A stretch of 64,000 nt of DNA. Origin: Spirochaetales bacterium. GTDB lineage: Bacteria > Spirochaetota > Spirochaetia > UBA9216. Below, piece after piece: positions 16,058 to 45,211 of this stretch (positions within the stretch are counted from its first letter, which is position 1; the number at the start of each line of letters is the position of its first letter). The position numbers and the translations under genes are program-made. Under the pieces are notes generated by a model. The model was not told the DNA's origin and did not search any database. It saw only the letters and a list, made by a program, of their open reading frames with translations. The DNA is taken from the NCBI GenBank assembly GCA_016839055.1, contig JAEKNX010000008.1, positions 62,001 to 126,000 on the forward strand, in the 5' to 3' direction.

Positions 16058-16875
16058 TGGCAGAGATTCTGATTGGTACATCCGGATACTACTATCAGGA
16101 CTGGGTCGGTCCGTTTTATCCGGAAACTATAAAAAAAGAAGGATTTTTCGAGTACTACAGCAGAACCTTCCCCTTTTGTGAGCTTAACTTCTCATACTAT
16201 CAGATGCCCAGACGTTCAAGGCTCATCGGCCTTATAAAGCAGAGCCCTAAGAATTTCATGTTTTCAATAAAGGCGCATCAGAGCCTGACCCATGAACGCG
16301 GACCTAAATCACCGGAACACGCATCAGAGTTTCTTCACGCCGTCAGCCCGCTGGTTGATGAGAAAAGGCTAGCCGCGGTCCTGCTTCAGTTTCCTTACAG
16401 CTTCCACTACAGCACAGCAAACCGTAAATACCTGTCTGAGCTGATAGAAAACCTGAAGGGCCTGCCGCTCGCAGTCGAGTTCAGGAACCGTGAGTGGATG
16501 CTTGATAGAGTTTATTCCGGGCTCGAAAGTCGTAATGCCTGTTTCGTTCAGACAGACATGCCGAACCTTGACAACCTGCCGCTTCCCACCTCGACGGTCA
16601 CCTCCGATATCGGATACATTCGCTTTCACGGCAGGAACAGGACAAACTGGTGGAATGGAGACAACACAAGCCGTTTCGACTATCTCTATAACGAACATGA
16701 ACTCCAGTCCTGGCTTTGCCGGACTGAAGAGATTGCGTCGAAGGTGAAAAAGCTCTTCATAGCCTTCAACAACCATCACAAGGGGCAGGCCGTACAGAAC
16801 GCAGTCCAGATCTATAATCTGCTCAAAGAACATACAAGGCTCGAGCCGGCGGAAATAAATATTAAAGCGAGGTAA
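16057..16875 (+). CDS. DUF72 (YecE-like) domain protein
   Basis: EILIGTSGYYYQDWVGPFYPE; FELNFSYYQMP-type; YIRFHGRN...LFIAFNNHHKGQAVQNA. Confidence 0.92.
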   Translation: MAEILIGTSGYYYQDWVGPFYPETIKKEGFFEYYSRTFPFCELNFSYYQMPRRSRLIGLIKQSPKNFMFSIKAHQSLTHERGPKSPEHASEFLHAVSPLVDEKRLAAVLLQFPYSFHYSTANRKYLSELIENLKGLPLAVEFRNREWMLDRVYSGLESRNACFVQTDMPNLDNLPLPTSTVTSDIGYIRFHGRNRTNWWNGDNTSRFDYLYNEHELQSWLCRTEEIASKVKKLFIAFNNHHKGQAVQNAVQIYNLLKEHTRLEPAEINIKAR

Positions 16876-19800
16876 GGAAGTTTTTCTTCTCGGCCCGCTG
16901 CATCTTTCCAATCCGTTCGAGAAAAACTTTTGCCGTTTCGTCATCTGGATCTGAGGCGGCAACCTTATCAAGCAGTTCCGCGGCTTTTTCAAATTCCCGG
17001 CGTGAGAATTTCATTATTGCCTCTTCAAAGTTAGTCTTCGTGCGGTTCTTATTTTCAAGTTTCTCACTGCTGTCAGAATCAAAAATCTCAAAAAGGGCTA
17101 CTGCCTTGTTCTTCCCCTTAACCTTGACCCGGCCGAGGAAGCGGAAGTTGTAGTCCATCGGATTCTCAAGCTTAACGAAGGTTTCCTGACTGATTACGAC
17201 ATTCGCCTTGTAGAGCTTGGTGACATCCTGAATACGGGACGCGAGATTAACCGCATCCGAGATTACTGTGCCCTGCATTCTCTTCTCATCACCTATAATC
17301 CCGAGAATCATGCTGCCGGTATGTATTCCTATTCCAATACCAATGGCCTTATAGCCACAGTTAGCCCTATGCCCGTTGTATACATTCACGTGCTCAATCA
17401 TCTCGGCGGCCGCAGCGAGGGCATCTTCAGGCTTGTAAGGAAAGAGAGCCATGATGGCATCTCCGATATACTTATCAACAAAGCCTCCGTTGTTAGTAAT
17501 CATCGGGCTGAAACGGCTAAGATAAGAGTTGATAAATTTGAAGTTTTCCTCTGGAGTCATGTTCTCGGACAGACTTGTAAAAGCCCGGATATCGACAAAA
17601 AGAATAGTCATCTCCCGCTGCACCTGATCCCCGAGGGCAACATCTACTATATTCTCCTGGCCCAGGGCTTTCAGGAATTCCGTGGGCACAAACCGGCTGT
17701 AAACGGTACTGATGCGTGAAAGCTGGAGGTGAGTATTCACCCTGGTCAAGAATTCCTCCTGAATATAGGGCCGAGTCAGAAAATCATTAGCTCCAGAGGT
17801 CAACCCCTCCATCATATCCGAGACATCTTCTTTATTTATAACAATGATAACCGGCAGTTCATCTTTTGAGAATTTCTCTCTAATTTTGAGGCAGACTTCA
17901 TAACCGCTCATATCTGGCAGCTTCACATCGATTATAACCAGATGAGGGGGATCTTCCTCCACCCTGCCAAGCAGATCCTTTCCGGAAATCATAGGAATAA
18001 CAGTATAGTTCATTGAAGCAAGCTGGGTCTTCAGGATCTGCAGCGCTTCAACATCCTTTCCCGCGACAAGAATCTCAATGTCTCGGTCCGAAGTAACCTC
18101 ATCAAAAACCGGCTGGAGATTAATGAGAGCATCTATCTCCAGAACTTCCTCATCAGTCAGCGGAGCCTCCCCGGTCCATAGAGGAAGTGAAAATGAATAT
18201 ATGAGCACATTCTCCTCAGTATCTATTCCAAGATCTTCGTCATGCAGCTCTATCAGCTTCTTCGCAATTGCCAGGCTGAGATCAGAGACATCCTTATTAT
18301 CAAGACTACTGCTCTGAGACTGTTCATACGCACTAAAAAGTTCGACAACAGTCTCAAGATCCAAATCAGAGCCTGTAACCCTCACGATAATTCTAACTTC
18401 CTCTTCAGAAATATCGGTTCTTATCTGCACATCACCGGAGTCTATATGACGGACGGAATTACTGACTATATTATAGAGAATCTGCTCAATCCGCTGTTCA
18501 TCGGCCGCAACCCTCGGAGTATCACGGGTTACCTCGTTGGACAATGTCTTATCATGCACTGCCACAAGGGCTTCACAGCTGTTCAGAACCTTATGGGTAA
18601 TCTGAAACAAATCGACAGCGGTTATGTTGAGATTCAGGGAATTATCCCGGATACTCGAGAAATCGAGTATATCATTCACCATATTAGAGAGCCTGATGCC
18701 GTTCGACACAATCAAAGAGGAATTGGCAATCTGCTCTGAATTAAGCGGTCCGATAGAGCCCCTAAGCAGGCCTTCGCCCAGTTCGACAATATTCCTGATA
18801 GGCCGGTATAGTTCAATCGAATTTCTTGAGAAAAAGCTTTCTTTCTGATTCGAAAGCGCTGTAAATTTATTATAAGTTTCTTCGGCAAACCGGTTATCCG
18901 CAAGACCATCCATTATTAACCGGTATGTCTGCTGAGCCGCAAAAACAATGAGCCCCGCAAAGACTAAACGCACTGACGCAATCAGTCCGATTGAGAAAAG
19001 AATGTCATTAAGCATGCACAGAGCCATTATAGAAAAACTGATTAAAGTGAGTTTTGACGCATATCTGCCATTCCGAACGGCGAAGATCATGCATATAATA
19101 AGATAAACCGCACAGACCACCCTCAGTCCGGTATAAATGAAAACCATATACCGCATTAAATTCAGCGGCAGAACAAAAACAAGAACGAGGGCCGCGATTG
19201 ATACAATCTCGACAAACTTAATAACTGGTCGATGAACTTCATCAGGAAAAAGCGATTTCATATAATTAAGCATGACAGGAAAGGCAAGAACAAGGAAAAA
19301 CCCCTCCATTCTGAAAATTAAATTCGCGGTGAACATCGGCAGCAGGTATGAAACAACTACTCTGCCGGTAAAAAGAGCGTAGAACGAATAGATTAGCATA
19401 TACACAAAAAAGAACATGCTGTACGGATATTTGCGCTGATAAAAATAATTAAAGAGATGAATCATCGCGAATGAAAATAGAATAAAAATAATTAGAGACT
19501 CAAAAGCTTTCCCCTGATGGGCTCCGAACTCAACATCAGCATACCGGCCGTATGTCAGCCAAGTCATCATGCTTCCGCCATAGAAATGTACGGAATTGGA
19601 AACCTGAATGAGAATGTCGAGCTCATCAGTATCCTGCTCAAACGGGACTACCCGCGCCCTTATGAATGACAGCTCTTCGCAGTCTTCAGACGGTTTGCCG
19701 CAGATCGATATTTTTTCACCATTTATCCAGAGATTATATGCCGAATATATCGGATTGATAAGCAGAGCATTAAAGCCTTTCATCTGGGCGGTATTCAAAC

Positions 19801-20059
19801 TCAGCTGCCAGTAATAATTACCGGTTCCGAATCTCCCGGGTTCGAGATCAACAGGATTTTCGAGTTCTCTATCGGTATACGCCTGCCACCCGCTGTCAAG
19901 TTTTAGAGTAGTTCCATCTGCCGGACTGTAGATCATTTCAGCACCGGTGTCATCTTTCATTGAAACAGAGCTGGTAAGAAAAGAATACCCAAATGTTCCA
20001 ACGAGAAGAACGATAAATAAACTCGCGACTATAAAAATAATTCTTTTATCATTAATCAT
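16862..20059 (-). CDS. 7TMR-DISM sensor / degenerate histidine-kinase-like module / receiver / class III adenylyl cyclase / TPR-like tail
   Basis: Extracellular DISM-like domain, seven TMs, SIEL in place of SHEL, receiver LVIIDVKLPDMSGYE, cyclase TILFVDIRAFTSLSE...KYIGDAIMALF...DAVNLASRIQ. Confidence 0.92.
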   Translation of the reverse strand: MINDKRIIFIVASLFIVLLVGTFGYSFLTSSVSMKDDTGAEMIYSPADGTTLKLDSGWQAYTDRELENPVDLEPGRFGTGNYYWQLSLNTAQMKGFNALLINPIYSAYNLWINGEKISICGKPSEDCEELSFIRARVVPFEQDTDELDILIQVSNSVHFYGGSMMTWLTYGRYADVEFGAHQGKAFESLIIFILFSFAMIHLFNYFYQRKYPYSMFFFVYMLIYSFYALFTGRVVVSYLLPMFTANLIFRMEGFFLVLAFPVMLNYMKSLFPDEVHRPVIKFVEIVSIAALVLVFVLPLNLMRYMVFIYTGLRVVCAVYLIICMIFAVRNGRYASKLTLISFSIMALCMLNDILFSIGLIASVRLVFAGLIVFAAQQTYRLIMDGLADNRFAEETYNKFTALSNQKESFFSRNSIELYRPIRNIVELGEGLLRGSIGPLNSEQIANSSLIVSNGIRLSNMVNDILDFSSIRDNSLNLNITAVDLFQITHKVLNSCEALVAVHDKTLSNEVTRDTPRVAADEQRIEQILYNIVSNSVRHIDSGDVQIRTDISEEEVRIIVRVTGSDLDLETVVELFSAYEQSQSSSLDNKDVSDLSLAIAKKLIELHDEDLGIDTEENVLIYSFSLPLWTGEAPLTDEEVLEIDALINLQPVFDEVTSDRDIEILVAGKDVEALQILKTQLASMNYTVIPMISGKDLLGRVEEDPPHLVIIDVKLPDMSGYEVCLKIREKFSKDELPVIIVINKEDVSDMMEGLTSGANDFLTRPYIQEEFLTRVNTHLQLSRISTVYSRFVPTEFLKALGQENIVDVALGDQVQREMTILFVDIRAFTSLSENMTPEENFKFINSYLSRFSPMITNNGGFVDKYIGDAIMALFPYKPEDALAAAAEMIEHVNVYNGHRANCGYKAIGIGIGIHTGSMILGIIGDEKRMQGTVISDAVNLASRIQDVTKLYKANVVISQETFVKLENPMDYNFRFLGRVKVKGKNKAVALFEIFDSDSSEKLENKNRTKTNFEEAIMKFSRREFEKAAELLDKVAASDPDDETAKVFLERIGKMQRAEKKNFLTSL

Positions 20060-34186: not shown

Positions 34187-35740
34187 ATGGAAAAAGAGCA
34201 TGATATTCTTGATGAAACAGTAAGGCTGTGTACAGCCCTGTCCCGGGAAACGAAACTATCTTCTATGATTTCAATCCTGGTTGAGCAGAGTCTTGACATC
34301 AGCTGCAGCGAACTTGCCGGACTATACCTTTATCCTCCGGCTGGCGGAAGTGCACGCCTTGCGTACAAGAGAGGGCGGTATGAACTGCCCGGCGAGATAA
34401 GGAAAAAATCGGAACTCGTCAGTTTCTTAGATGACTGTCGTGAGGCTATCGTACTGCTTAAAAGACGGCCTTCGCCCTTTTCCGAGCTCCTCCTTGATAA
34501 GAAGATGAACAGCGGCATAATCCTTCCGCTTAATGTACCTTCAGAGAATATCGGCTTCCTCATCCTCAACTCGGACAAGGAAAACTTTTTCAGTGCCGAT
34601 AAATTCAGATTTCTGGAATCAATTTCGAAATTTGCCGGCGGTCTTCTTCACAATTCAGTCCTTTATGATCAGCTGAAAGAATACGTACGTAAGATTGAAG
34701 CCATGGAGCGCTATCAGAAAAACATCTTCTCATCCATGTCAGACTTTCTGATAACCACAAATTCCGACGGCAACATACATTACTTCAACAGAGCCGCGGC
34801 TGAGAAACTCGGCTTAAGCGAAGAACATATTGGGAAAAACATGACAACCTTTTTCAGCGAGAAAATAACCAAAAAAGCGCTGAACGCGATCAATAAGGCC
34901 GACAATGAGGATTCATTAATCCTGGGCCTGGAAGGAATTCTGACAACCGAAGCTGACAGCATCGATTACTCACTGAATGTGACCCCTCTCAAAGGCAAGC
35001 GCGGCAGAAAGGAGGGACTAACCCTTCTGTTCAAGGACCAGAGCGCCGAGATGGAGATGAAAAGCAAGATGAGTATGGCCGTCGAGGAACGAAGAGTAAT
35101 CAAGGACATGTTTTCAAAGTACCTGTCCAACGATATAATAAACCATCTGATGGAAAATCCGAAACTTATCAATCCCGGAGGCTCCTTGAAAATCGCAACC
35201 GTATTCTTCGCGGATATCAGAGGTTATACTTCTTTTTCAGAATCTCAGGAACCCGAGGATATTATTGATATCCTGAATGAATATTTCAAAGAAGCCGTAG
35301 AGATTGTAATTGAATACGGGGGTTATATTGACAAGTTCATTGGTGACTGCATAATGGCCGCCTGGGGTGTCCCGCTGTCAAACGAAAAAGAGGACGCTAT
35401 AAAAGCAGTCCAGTGCGCGGTTGAAATACAGCGCCTTGTCGCATCAAAACAGAGAAAATTCTTTCACGGCCAGGCGGAAACGTTAAAAATCGGTATAGGA
35501 ATGCATTCAGGACCACTTGTGGCGGGTAATCTCGGAAGCTCCCGGAGGATGGATTATTCGATGATCGGCGACACGGTCAACCTCGCCGCCCGGCTCGAGG
35601 GAGTTGCCGAAGCCAACGAGATAATTATTACCGGCGCTACAAAAAACATGCTCGATGACAGCTTCAACCTTGAAAAACGCACCCCAGTAATGGTCAAGGG
35701 AAAAAAAGCCCCGATAGAAATTTACAATGTAGCCGTTTAA
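34187..35740 (+). CDS. GAF-PAS-class III adenylate/guanylate cyclase
   Basis: KIATVFFADIRGYTSFSESQ...DKFIGDCIMAAWGVP...GDTVNLAARLEGVA. Confidence 0.93.
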   Translation: MEKEHDILDETVRLCTALSRETKLSSMISILVEQSLDISCSELAGLYLYPPAGGSARLAYKRGRYELPGEIRKKSELVSFLDDCREAIVLLKRRPSPFSELLLDKKMNSGIILPLNVPSENIGFLILNSDKENFFSADKFRFLESISKFAGGLLHNSVLYDQLKEYVRKIEAMERYQKNIFSSMSDFLITTNSDGNIHYFNRAAAEKLGLSEEHIGKNMTTFFSEKITKKALNAINKADNEDSLILGLEGILTTEADSIDYSLNVTPLKGKRGRKEGLTLLFKDQSAEMEMKSKMSMAVEERRVIKDMFSKYLSNDIINHLMENPKLINPGGSLKIATVFFADIRGYTSFSESQEPEDIIDILNEYFKEAVEIVIEYGGYIDKFIGDCIMAAWGVPLSNEKEDAIKAVQCAVEIQRLVASKQRKFFHGQAETLKIGIGMHSGPLVAGNLGSSRRMDYSMIGDTVNLAARLEGVAEANEIIITGATKNMLDDSFNLEKRTPVMVKGKKAPIEIYNVAV

Positions 35741-35761
35741 CGGCAATGGAGGATTTTATAA

Positions 35762-38338
35762 ATGGAAATCATACCTGGATTTTTTATGCCCCTATGGAGC
35801 ATTATCACCGCAATCTCAGCCGTTTCGGCAATCATCATCCTGATAATACTGCGAATCTTCCTGAATATAAGCTTTCTCAGATTCTGCGACAGGGCCTTCA
35901 ATGACCGGGAGGCGATGGAGATTTTCAAGAAAAAATATTCCGGCAGTAAACTCCTTAAACGTTCCAGATTTATTGAAAAGTCAGCAGAGAAAAACGGTAA
36001 GGGATTTATTGTTGATATCGGCATTGACAAGTTGTGGGAACAGCAGTTTCTAAATTATAAAAAAACCGGATATTTGAAGAAATTCATAAAATACTTTCCA
36101 GAAAAGGGGTTGTTCTTCTGCATCATAGCCGGACAGAACAAATCATCCTATCAGAAGATCTTCCAAAACATGGTATCACAGAACAACGACGCCAACCTTC
36201 TGAAGAAAATAGGCGCAGCCGGGGACGGTACTGATTTTGACGGGAAATACACAGCTTCAATGCTTGAGGACCGATTTCAGGAAATAATTGAATTGACCGG
36301 CGAAGCAGAATGGCCGGTCAGGTTTTTTGCTGTAAAACTTCTTATCTATATAAACAAACCACGGGCCCTCAGATCCGTATGGGAAGCCTTTTCAGATTCT
36401 TCTAAAAAAATAAGAGAAACCGTCGCCGCCGAATTCAACCCGGAAGACAGGAAGAAACTGGGAAGTACACTTAAAGAACTCCTCCTTGATGATCCGTGTT
36501 TTGAAGTTCGCAGGGCGGCAAGACTGAGACTCGATAAAGAGTTCCCAGAGCTGTACCGGATGGACACGGCTTCGCTTGCCAAGCCTCGGCTCATCCATCT
36601 GCTCGGACACCTTCACGACAATTCTGATGAGGATCAGAATACAGCTTTGAAGTTCCTCCTATCAGAAGATCTTGAAGTAAGGCTGCAGGCGGCCCTTTAT
36701 CTGCAGCGACAGAAGGTCCTCAATCGGATATTTACCGAAACCAAAGCCGGCGACAGGACGGAGTTCGAACGCAGTCTGAACCTTCTTACCTGTGCCTGCG
36801 AGGTTAACTGCACATCCTTTCTGAATGAACTCGACCACACCGACAATCCTGCTTCAGTTCAGCTGGCCGCCGAACTGCTCCGGACAAACAGCAGCAAGGA
36901 ATATATAGACAAACTTGCCCTCAAGATTTTCAACCCCTCTACCCGAACCTCGATGAGAGAGCATTTTGATGAAATATACAAAAAAACAATCGAGAGCATT
37001 TCACTACGCGGAACCGACAAGGCCCTGCAGATGCTCAATCAGGAACTACTTAGTAAGGCAGATGACGGTACTACACTGGACATCCTGCTGCCCCTCCTTC
37101 CCGAACGCGGTGAGTACATTTTCATACCAAGCCTCTTATCATTCTTGAAGAGCGATGACTGCCCCCGGCCTGAACTACTCCGTAAGACAATTGAAAGATT
37201 CCCCCCCTGCATGTATATAGAAGAGCTTGTTTCCCTTCTTCGGAACGCCGGAAGTACATCCCATTCGGTCAGAAAAGAAGCGTTCAAAATCCTCGGAGAG
37301 CTGAAGATGGCCTGCTGTCTGCAGATAATCCTCGAGAACCTCAACCTTCTATCACCAGCAGAACGAAAGGATTTTGCCTCTCTCATGTCTGTTTTCGATC
37401 AAGAGGCATTCGAAGATCGGGTCAGCGGGCTGCTGAACTCAGTCGATTCAACTGTCAAGGCCGCCCTGATAAGCGCGCTTCCCTCAACAGGAATAAAGAG
37501 ATTCATCACAGAGATAAAGGACAGCTCCAAGGATCCTGATCCGGATGTAAGGGCCGCAGGAATTTGGGCTCTTGCCGGCTACGGTGAAATAAAATTACTT
37601 AGCCAGATGACCTCTATGCTCAGAGACCCCGTCGAACGCGTGCGCCGTGAAACAGCAGAAGTAATTGCATCATACGGCACTCCGGCAGCTCTCTTGGAGC
37701 TTGAGAAAATCATCGAGGATGAAAACGAAGTAATGCCGGTAAAAGCTGCCGCCATATACGGACTAGGACACTCGCCCCGTGTTGAATCGATAGCAATCCT
37801 CGTGGACATTCTCCAGAATGATGAACTGAGACAAGAAGCGGTACAAGCTCTTTCACTGAAGAAAAGCCTGAATGAGCTCAAAGCGCTTATTGAACTTTTC
37901 AAAGACTCGCCTCCTCAGCTGAGGGAATATATTGCCGAAGTGTTCAAGATGATGGGCAAGTCAATCGAACCTGCAGTAATAACCCTCCTAAGTGAAGACA
38001 TATCTTCACTTAGAGAAATAATCGCGGAGATTCTTCATAAAACCGGCTTCATCGAGACGACAGTCAGAAAGCTTCGACATCGGAACTCTTTAGTCAGAAA
38101 AAATGCTGCTACCGTACTCTCGATGATACAAACCCGCGAAGCCTTCAAGGGCATCGTTCTTGCTGCAAGAGACCCTGATCAGGACGTCCGCGTTGAGGTT
38201 CTAAAGGCGATAGAGAAGCTAAACTCTCCCGATGGTGTCCCTATTCTCAATGAACTCAAAGAGGATCCCGACCGTAGAGTACGAAAATTCACCCTCTGGG
38301 CAATGGAAAGAATAGATGCCAAAAACTTGAATGAATAG
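35762..38338 (+). CDS. Membrane-anchored HEAT-repeat protein
   Basis: N-terminal TM, repeated helical HEAT units (DPDPDVRAAGIWALAGYGEIKLL; DPVERVRRETAEVIASYG); SD GGAGG. Confidence 0.85.
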   Translation: MEIIPGFFMPLWSIITAISAVSAIIILIILRIFLNISFLRFCDRAFNDREAMEIFKKKYSGSKLLKRSRFIEKSAEKNGKGFIVDIGIDKLWEQQFLNYKKTGYLKKFIKYFPEKGLFFCIIAGQNKSSYQKIFQNMVSQNNDANLLKKIGAAGDGTDFDGKYTASMLEDRFQEIIELTGEAEWPVRFFAVKLLIYINKPRALRSVWEAFSDSSKKIRETVAAEFNPEDRKKLGSTLKELLLDDPCFEVRRAARLRLDKEFPELYRMDTASLAKPRLIHLLGHLHDNSDEDQNTALKFLLSEDLEVRLQAALYLQRQKVLNRIFTETKAGDRTEFERSLNLLTCACEVNCTSFLNELDHTDNPASVQLAAELLRTNSSKEYIDKLALKIFNPSTRTSMREHFDEIYKKTIESISLRGTDKALQMLNQELLSKADDGTTLDILLPLLPERGEYIFIPSLLSFLKSDDCPRPELLRKTIERFPPCMYIEELVSLLRNAGSTSHSVRKEAFKILGELKMACCLQIILENLNLLSPAERKDFASLMSVFDQEAFEDRVSGLLNSVDSTVKAALISALPSTGIKRFITEIKDSSKDPDPDVRAAGIWALAGYGEIKLLSQMTSMLRDPVERVRRETAEVIASYGTPAALLELEKIIEDENEVMPVKAAAIYGLGHSPRVESIAILVDILQNDELRQEAVQALSLKKSLNELKALIELFKDSPPQLREYIAEVFKMMGKSIEPAVITLLSEDISSLREIIAEILHKTGFIETTVRKLRHRNSLVRKNAATVLSMIQTREAFKGIVLAARDPDQDVRVEVLKAIEKLNSPDGVPILNELKEDPDRRVRKFTLWAMERIDAKNLNE

Positions 38339-43891: not shown

Positions 43892-45211
43892 TTAGTTATT
43901 CCCTAATTTTTTTATTTTATCAGTCAACTGCGCGTTCTGCTCATTAGATCTGGCAAGTCTCCGGGCAAGCAACCTCGAGAGAAAAATCCCGTAATAAGGA
44001 TAATCCCGTACAAGAGTCACAAATGCCTTCCTGGATATTTTGATGAGCTTGCCGTTATCAGCAGCTTTTATAGTTCCGTTTCTCTTGTTGCTGAGGAGAA
44101 ATGACATTTCGCCCATGAAGATATCATTCTGATTAAGCTGCCCGACCCTCTTTCTCCTGTGGTACACATAGTATTTTCCAGAGATGATGTAATAAAGATA
44201 GTCGCTCTCCTCTCCTTCACGGAAGATAATCTCGCCGCGTTTCACCTCAACAATCTCTTCCTTCCTGAACCGGAGAGGAAAAGGCTGCTGATCCTGCTCT
44301 TCATTTTCAATAACAAGGGTGACCTGATTTCCTTTTTTATTATAGTAGATCTCTTTTGAAAGATGACGTGCCATCCTTATGCCGCGGCCGTGCAGCGAAA
44401 ACTCATCCTGCATCTTTAAGGTCTCATTTAATTCAGCTACATCGAAACCGGACCCTTCGTCCCTGATGATGTATTTTGTAAAGTCGTTATGAATCTCCCA
44501 CTCCATGTGGACCTGCTTTGCGGATATTTTCCTATTCTTACACTTCTCGGCCACAAGCTCAACAACACTCCCGCCGTTTTCCATGAACTCGGTTTTCTCA
44601 TCATAGCTTACTTCGCAGTTGCCGTGCTCAATTCCATTTACAATAAGCTCCGCAAGTGCGAGCTGGAGATGCATTTTCTTATCCGGACTTATCTTTCCCG
44701 ATTGGGACAGACTCGTGGCCGCAATACCTGCATAAATAGGCACAGCAAGGATATCATTTGAAATAGAAAACGAACCTGATGAGCTTTCCATAATTTTTGA
44801 CGCGAATCCGCGCTGAAATATTATCTGATAATTATCACGAATAATCTCGATACTCTTCATAAGGTGCGATCTTATCCGGTAAGCATTAAGAAGAGTAAGC
44901 ACATTAACTTCCTTAAGCTTCAAAAGGAGATCATCTTCATCGATGTCATCCTGATCATAAAGACCGATAACTCCAAAATAATGAAGCCAGGCGTCATCCT
45001 CGAGTCTTGTTATCAGGGATTCTATAGGTATTTCAGGATCCGAAAAATTGATCACGACAATCTCAGGCAGTTCATAGTTGATGAATTCATATATTTCATC
45101 TTCATGGGTAATAAATACCAGCTTGTACGCCTTCTCATCCCAATGCTCATAGGCCTGTTCGATTGTCCTGTTCAGCTTTTTATCTGAACTGATGATTCCT
45201 AAAACTTTCAT
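43892..45211 (-). CDS. Pseudo-receiver / HATPase (RsbW-like) / cyclic nucleotide-binding domain protein
   Basis: N-box LALAELIVNGIEHGN, G boxes IRDEGSGFD and GRGIRMA; CNB FREGEESDYLYYIISGKYYVY...GEMSFLLSNKRNGTIKA. Confidence 0.87.
   Translation of the reverse strand: MKVLGIISSDKKLNRTIEQAYEHWDEKAYKLVFITHEDEIYEFINYELPEIVVINFSDPEIPIESLITRLEDDAWLHYFGVIGLYDQDDIDEDDLLLKLKEVNVLTLLNAYRIRSHLMKSIEIIRDNYQIIFQRGFASKIMESSSGSFSISNDILAVPIYAGIAATSLSQSGKISPDKKMHLQLALAELIVNGIEHGNCEVSYDEKTEFMENGGSVVELVAEKCKNRKISAKQVHMEWEIHNDFTKYIIRDEGSGFDVAELNETLKMQDEFSLHGRGIRMARHLSKEIYYNKKGNQVTLVIENEEQDQQPFPLRFRKEEIVEVKRGEIIFREGEESDYLYYIISGKYYVYHRRKRVGQLNQNDIFMGEMSFLLSNKRNGTIKAADNGKLIKISRKAFVTLVRDYPYYGIFLSRLLARRLARSNEQNAQLTDKIKKLGNN

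Follow-up and report, generated by a model that had tools for sequence, protein, structure and literature searches.

A spirochaete receptor adenylyl cyclase predicted to carry a histidine kinase and receiver without phosphotransfer residues

A 64,000-nucleotide stretch of a Spirochaetales genome (contig JAEKNX010000008.1, positions 62,001 to 126,000; hereafter the window) carries on its minus strand a gene (16862..20059) for a protein of 1065 amino acids (aa). Open reading frame, Pfam and orthologue evidence identify it as a seven-transmembrane-helix (7TM) receptor joined to a pseudo-histidine kinase, a pseudo-receiver and a class III adenylyl cyclase. Sequence and orthologues give good support for a live cyclase behind a two-component cassette that is dead as a phosphotransfer device; kinase and receiver are classed as pseudo-domains on an alignment and a structural model in which the folds are kept and the phosphotransfer residues are gone. 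We consider it reasonably probable that the protein is a receptor adenylyl cyclase regulated via a two-component fold without phosphotransfer, using a module derived from a once-working phosphorelay. The source genome (G000, 5.0 Mb, contig 35) has as its nearest named relative SZUA-414, a Spirochaetales metagenome assembly.

The residue register was fixed by alignment to intact orthologues, and codon positions were checked. The phospho-acceptor His position is occupied by Ile415 (codon 18815..18817), and no alternative His is present in the DHp region of the protein (residues 390-471). In the ATP site, the G1 box DxGxG reads VTGSD (residues 561-565; 18365..18379), with Val561 for the Asp and Asp565 for the second Gly, and the G2 box GxGLG reads VSDLS (residues 591-595; 18275..18289), with Val591, Asp593 and Ser595; both N-box residues, Asn530 and Asn534, are kept. 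Lacking the acceptor His and both G boxes, the protein does not qualify as an active hybrid histidine kinase. The receiver retains one of five signature residues, Asp711 at the phospho-acceptor position (17927..17929), and is likewise not classed as active: the Asp-Asp metal site is Gly667-Lys668 (18056..18061), the Thr/Ser is Ile741 (17837..17839) and the Lys is Arg763 (17771..17773). With the residues for autophosphorylation and phosphotransfer absent, the protein also falls outside the CyaC type of phosphorelay cyclase. All six cyclase catalytic residues are present, comprising the metal Asp pair (D823, D867), the Lys/Thr purine pair (K863, T931) and the transition-state Asn/Arg pair (N938, R942); these, a Pfam score of 76.9 bits and the fold place the domain in class III, and the Lys/Thr purine-specificity pair makes it a predicted adenylyl cyclase. 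A first-pass annotation of the window had claimed the reading frame, the Ile at the acceptor position, the altered DxGxG box, the receiver with its Asp kept, its acidic pocket altered and Arg for Lys, and a cyclase with metal Asp residues and catalytic motif in place. All of this holds, the frame being uninterrupted; the annotation had missed the G2 box loss, the Thr to Ile741 change, the retained N-box pair and the His-free DHp region.

Within the same genome, 42 of 44 HisKA domains keep the His. The exceptions are the window protein and a hybrid-kinase-like protein of approximately 988 aa on contig 33 (L102, C33:160846-161049), which has Asn in place of the acceptor (SNELRTP). A published survey found 0.9% of HisKA domains without the His and 2.0% of receivers without the Asp (PMC12632262).

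Pfam recognizes, in order, 7TMR-DISM_7TM (residues 187-365), HisKA (406-471; 19 bits, under the 26.9 cut-off), HATPase_c (520-616), Response_reg (663-774) and Guanylate_cyc (814-987). The N-terminal domain (residues 50-172; 19544..19912) is, by model and Foldseek, a periplasmic beta-sandwich sensor like the jelly roll of glycoside hydrolase family 2 (GH2); its best Foldseek matches are all GH2 beta-glucuronidases or galacturonidases (E 2e-4) at low template modelling (TM) scores, a likeness at fold level only. The membrane domain (residues 173-389; 18893..19543) matches PF07695 (44.2 bits, cut-off 29; E 2.7e-11), and its seven modelled helices and the preceding beta-sandwich identify the protein as a 7TMR-DISM receptor. 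There follow the HisKA-like DHp helical hairpin (residues 390-471; 18647..18892), the HATPase-like domain (residues 472-635; 18155..18646; 44.5 bits) and the pseudo-receiver (residues 660-780; 17720..18082; 65.6 bits), each placed by Pfam and model. A helical stalk (residues 781-812; 17624..17719) leads from receiver helix alpha-5 to the cyclase domain (residues 813-990; 17090..17623), placed by Pfam, alignment and fold matches. C-terminal TPR-like helices (residues 1000-1055; 16895..17062) are suggested by the model and by a TPR_16 match in orthologue L079.

A model of residues 386-1065 keeps the DHp, ATPase, receiver and cyclase folds, with a mean predicted local distance difference test (pLDDT) of 77 and a predicted TM score (pTM) of 0.47, values that make the domain folds more trustworthy than the domain arrangement. 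PDB matches to the kinase part included ShkA, GacS, HK853 and RetS (6dk8), and those to the cyclase included CyaB and CyaC (CyaC structures 1wc0-1wc5, TM score 0.76-0.78 by target). In the models, the seventh transmembrane helix (TM7, residues 366-389) continues into the DHp helix (residues 387-432).

Full or partial relatives turned up in 23 of the 395 genomes searched within the class, and their gene regions were fetched and read. A contig-collection search with the window protein gave one close relative only, L060, which is the same contig as that of genome G001. Three other genomes of the window genus encode proteins with 61-64% identity, the same losses and an uninterrupted frame. The His position within the genus holds Ile (G000, G003, G004), Val (G001) or Glu (G002), and V561, V591, D593, S595, K668, I741 and R763 are identical across four species. 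Two further proteins belong to the same family: G006 has Asp for the His and has lost the receiver acids, and in G005 (L076:1-2820) the kinase is deleted and a Pro/Glu-rich repeat linker joins sensor and 7TM domain to pseudo-receiver and cyclase.

Intact and intermediate versions were found outside the window's family, in other families. The proteins of G040, G140, G207, G163 and G055 are intact by motif throughout, and that of G058 is near-intact, with Asn for the second receiver acid. The ATP site is broken in G071, G011 and G036, with His and receiver intact. G010 keeps the His, has lost the G2 box and has Arg for the receiver Lys, while G022 has Glu for the His, a kinase unrecognisable to Pfam and a fully intact receiver. 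Sensor and kinase are deleted in G044 and G019, where the receiver Asp is Ala and the cyclase set is kept. The window protein and all 19 relatives (G191 not counted) have the full cyclase set, and Asp711 is invariant in all aligned members that bear a histidine kinase. Pfam scores follow the same series: HisKA falls from 68, 67 and 66 bits to 19 and none, and HATPase from 104, 90 and 74 to 44.5 and none (the window protein's 44.5 compared with 90-104 in intact relatives), with the cyclase at 72-79 throughout. Orthologues with an intact His and ATP site, which the first-pass annotation had named as evidence against its reading, do occur, outside the family only; they show the deadness to be derived rather than absent from the window protein.

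The eroded kinases of G006 and G022 (L077, L083) are invisible to Pfam, yet share ~28-30% identity with the window protein. Domain annotation would miss such kinases, and surveys may undercount pseudo-kinases. One distant histidine kinase-receiver-cyclase protein, in G191 (L089:5019-8072; E 3.6e-93), was excluded from the family as doubtful, given its long branch and altered cyclase residues. Its acceptor His aligns to Ala, its receiver Asp to Ser and its cyclase Lys, Asn and Arg to Leu, Glu and Lys; by these residues it is perhaps a member in which all catalysis is dead.

In G002, G006, G011, G036, G071, G022, G044 and G019 the cyclase gene has beside it various combinations of an EF-G-like gene, the 233-aa gene adjoining that one and a DUF72 gene, which indicates that the erosion happened at one locus. 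These neighbours were not seen in the fetched stretches of the intact or near-intact G040, G207, G058 and G055. Scans for promoters and terminators gave no usable result. A cyclase tree, its backbone unresolved, places intact G055 as sister (96/94) to the three ATP-dead proteins. By the approximately unbiased (AU) test, a single clade of all kinase-dead members was disfavoured (p = 0.027) and a single clade of all His-less members was not rejected (p = 0.16); the groups tested were defined by trait, although a first tree had already been inspected. Together, the placement of G055 and the first of these tests make two or more losses of the kinase probable; repeated loss of the His is not claimed, since a single loss was not rejected.

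The domains differ in constraint. Identity within the genus is 92-95% for the cyclase, 81-97% for the stalk, 79-87% for the receiver, 74-89% for DHp and 44-66% for the ATPase. Distances relative to the cyclase are 1.8 (DHp), 1.9 (HATPase) and 3.1 (receiver) in the intact clade, and 3.6, 11.2 and 2.7 in the window genus; only the contrast between domains was used, as the clades differ in depth and the cyclase is very slow in the window genus. The ATPase domain now evolves there at a sensor-like rate, whereas DHp, receiver and stalk do not. Per-domain ratios of nonsynonymous to synonymous substitution rates (dN/dS) were dropped because dS was saturated in most comparisons, and proportions of nonsynonymous (pN) and synonymous (pS) differences were used instead. 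In the kinase region pN (0.21-0.38) is well below pS (0.64-0.86) and the region is free of indels among the four species, which argues that its fold is still under selection. The cyclase is under strong selection. Within the DHp hairpin, hardly any change is seen in GSIGPLNSEQ (residues 434-443) across family f1 and G010.

The mechanism that we favour starts from what is read directly in the alignments, namely the losses from the catalytic sets, the retained cyclase set, the conservation pattern and orthology. The protein would be a homodimeric receptor adenylyl cyclase with cyclic AMP (cAMP) as its product; 15 cyclic-nucleotide-binding matches in the genome were counted in favour of the mechanism as a whole. 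The GH2-like domain and the 7TMR-DISM bundle would sense a ligand, probably carbohydrate-like, and a conformational change would travel from the TM7-DHp helix through the DHp hairpin and pseudo-receiver to the stalk helix and so fix how the two cyclase domains of the dimer are arranged. Phosphotransfer would play no part, as the kinase has no His and cannot bind ATP in the normal way, and the receiver has no metal site, Thr or Lys. The module would descend from a working 7TM-histidine kinase-receiver-cyclase phosphorelay, lost at least twice since. A further elaboration, offered tentatively, is that conversion took place in situ on more than one occasion, with the ATP site lost first, the His next, the receiver last and the cyclase never; the receiver of the window genus may then be a fixed mechanical element, perhaps locked by a Lys668-Asp711 salt bridge, and the DHp hairpin a new contact surface.

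The conformational relay put forward in the first-pass annotation is plausible, given the conserved DHp hairpin, receiver and stalk, the absence of indels and the continuity of TM7 with DHp, but several observations weigh against it and keep it short of demonstration. In one genome of the same family, G005, a disordered acidic linker replaces the kinase with sensor and 7TM domain kept, which means that this protein does without a rigid helical relay; G044 and G019 retain the cyclase set after losing sensor and kinase; the ATPase domain shows strong relaxation; and the modelled inter-domain geometry is poor (pTM 0.47). All but the last of these also suit the strongest rival, in which kinase and receiver are a vestigial spacer that transmits nothing and tethers the cyclase near the membrane, the enzyme being regulated otherwise (by bicarbonate, partner proteins or expression) or by sensor-driven dimerisation alone. 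The rise of the HATPase rate from ~1.9 to ~11 relative to the cyclase, near that of sensor and transmembrane helices, is as a spacer would predict. The conservation of hairpin, receiver and stalk without indels is not, and both the genus and G005 retain sensor and 7TM domain; we regard a spacer as rather unlikely, if a serious competitor.

Phosphorylation in trans is less probable still for the window protein. Asp711 would then slowly receive phosphate from a small phosphodonor or a different kinase, making the receiver a weak switch, as might be read from the invariance of this residue and from reports that substitutions at the acidic pair, Thr or Lys do not always abolish receiver phosphorylation (PMC12632262). 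However, both acids, the Thr and the Lys are missing here, a Lys sits in the metal site, and G044 and G019 have kept the cyclase with Ala for the Asp. The dead kinase and fully intact receiver of G022 suit input in trans in that genome, and by their residues such input is more plausible in G071, G011, G036 and G022 than in the window protein. We give next to no credence to a misassembly, frameshift or decaying gene: the assembly is a draft of 43 contigs with 3.8% estimated contamination, but four genomes have the 1065-codon frame uninterrupted, share one class of substitutions and keep the neighbouring genes, and the cyclase is under strong selection. Orthologues in the genus with the same losses rule out chance, misassembly and a pseudogene.

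Other cyclic-nucleotide proteins occur in the window and genome. A 439-aa protein (43892-45211, minus strand) combines an RsbW-type HATPase_c_2 domain with a cyclic-nucleotide-binding domain and, by this composition, is a possible cAMP-gated anti-sigma-type kinase and candidate effector. A second class III cyclase (GAF-PAS-cyclase, 517 aa) is followed by an 858-aa HEAT-repeat protein (34187-38338, plus strand); in G010 (L078), orthologues of both directly adjoin the dead-cassette cyclase. A paralogue on contig 35 of the same genome, near 33-35 kb (L093:2966-5026), fuses DISM-7TM straight to a cyclase with no kinase or receiver, showing that the organism also uses a short DISM-7TM-cyclase design.

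The switching of pseudo-receivers has been described as a mystery (PMC12632262). The value of this family lies in a matched series of orthologues, namely intact, ATP-dead, His-less with an intact receiver, fully dead, kinase-deleted and sensor-plus-kinase-deleted, in which G071, G011, G036 and G022 are useful intermediates. All are joined to a directly assayable cyclase, so that phosphorylation-free signalling and the order in which phosphorelay parts are lost become testable.

In CyaC, a histidine kinase and a receiver precede a class III cyclase. It is the active counterpart of the window protein, which shares this order and matches its cyclase fold. CyaC of Spirulina (Arthrospira) platensis is activated by autophosphorylation and phosphotransfer, according to Kasahara and Ohmori (1999) as cited in PMC1183210, whereas the window protein has lost the His, the ATP site and the receiver chemistry and has a 7TMR-DISM sensor. 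A parallel in a different fold is offered by animal receptor guanylyl cyclases, with a receptor, a dead kinase-homology domain, a helical linker and a class III cyclase (PMC1592074); the dead domain there has the fold of Ser/Thr/Tyr kinases and no relation to histidine kinases, and we found no literature joining the two.

The first-pass annotation had called the design unusual, which is partly right, since precedents exist. A close one in architecture is amoebozoan ACR/AcrA, with six to seven transmembrane helices, HATPase_c, two receivers and a class III cyclase, in which the phosphorelay is incomplete because HisKA is missing (PMC4399386) and activity depends on neither of the response-regulator domains (PMC5055082). 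The likeness is one of architecture, no amoebozoan sequence having been compared, and ACR/AcrA differs in being eukaryotic, with two receivers and with HisKA absent rather than mutated. Hybrid kinases with 7TMR-DISM sensors include RetS. Its kinase region structurally matches that of the window protein, and in Pseudomonas aeruginosa it signals without kinase activity (PMC5992135), although it carries no cyclase and works in trans on another kinase, GacS. Pseudo-histidine kinases, of which DivL is a named example (PMC9430884), and bacterial pseudo-receivers have lost acceptor or ATP residues and kept fold and signalling role (PMC12632262). Given ACR/AcrA and RetS, the design is new only as a bacterial variant; compared with DivL-type pseudo-kinases and pseudo-receivers, the window protein has both halves predicted dead in one polypeptide, with a cyclase output in cis.

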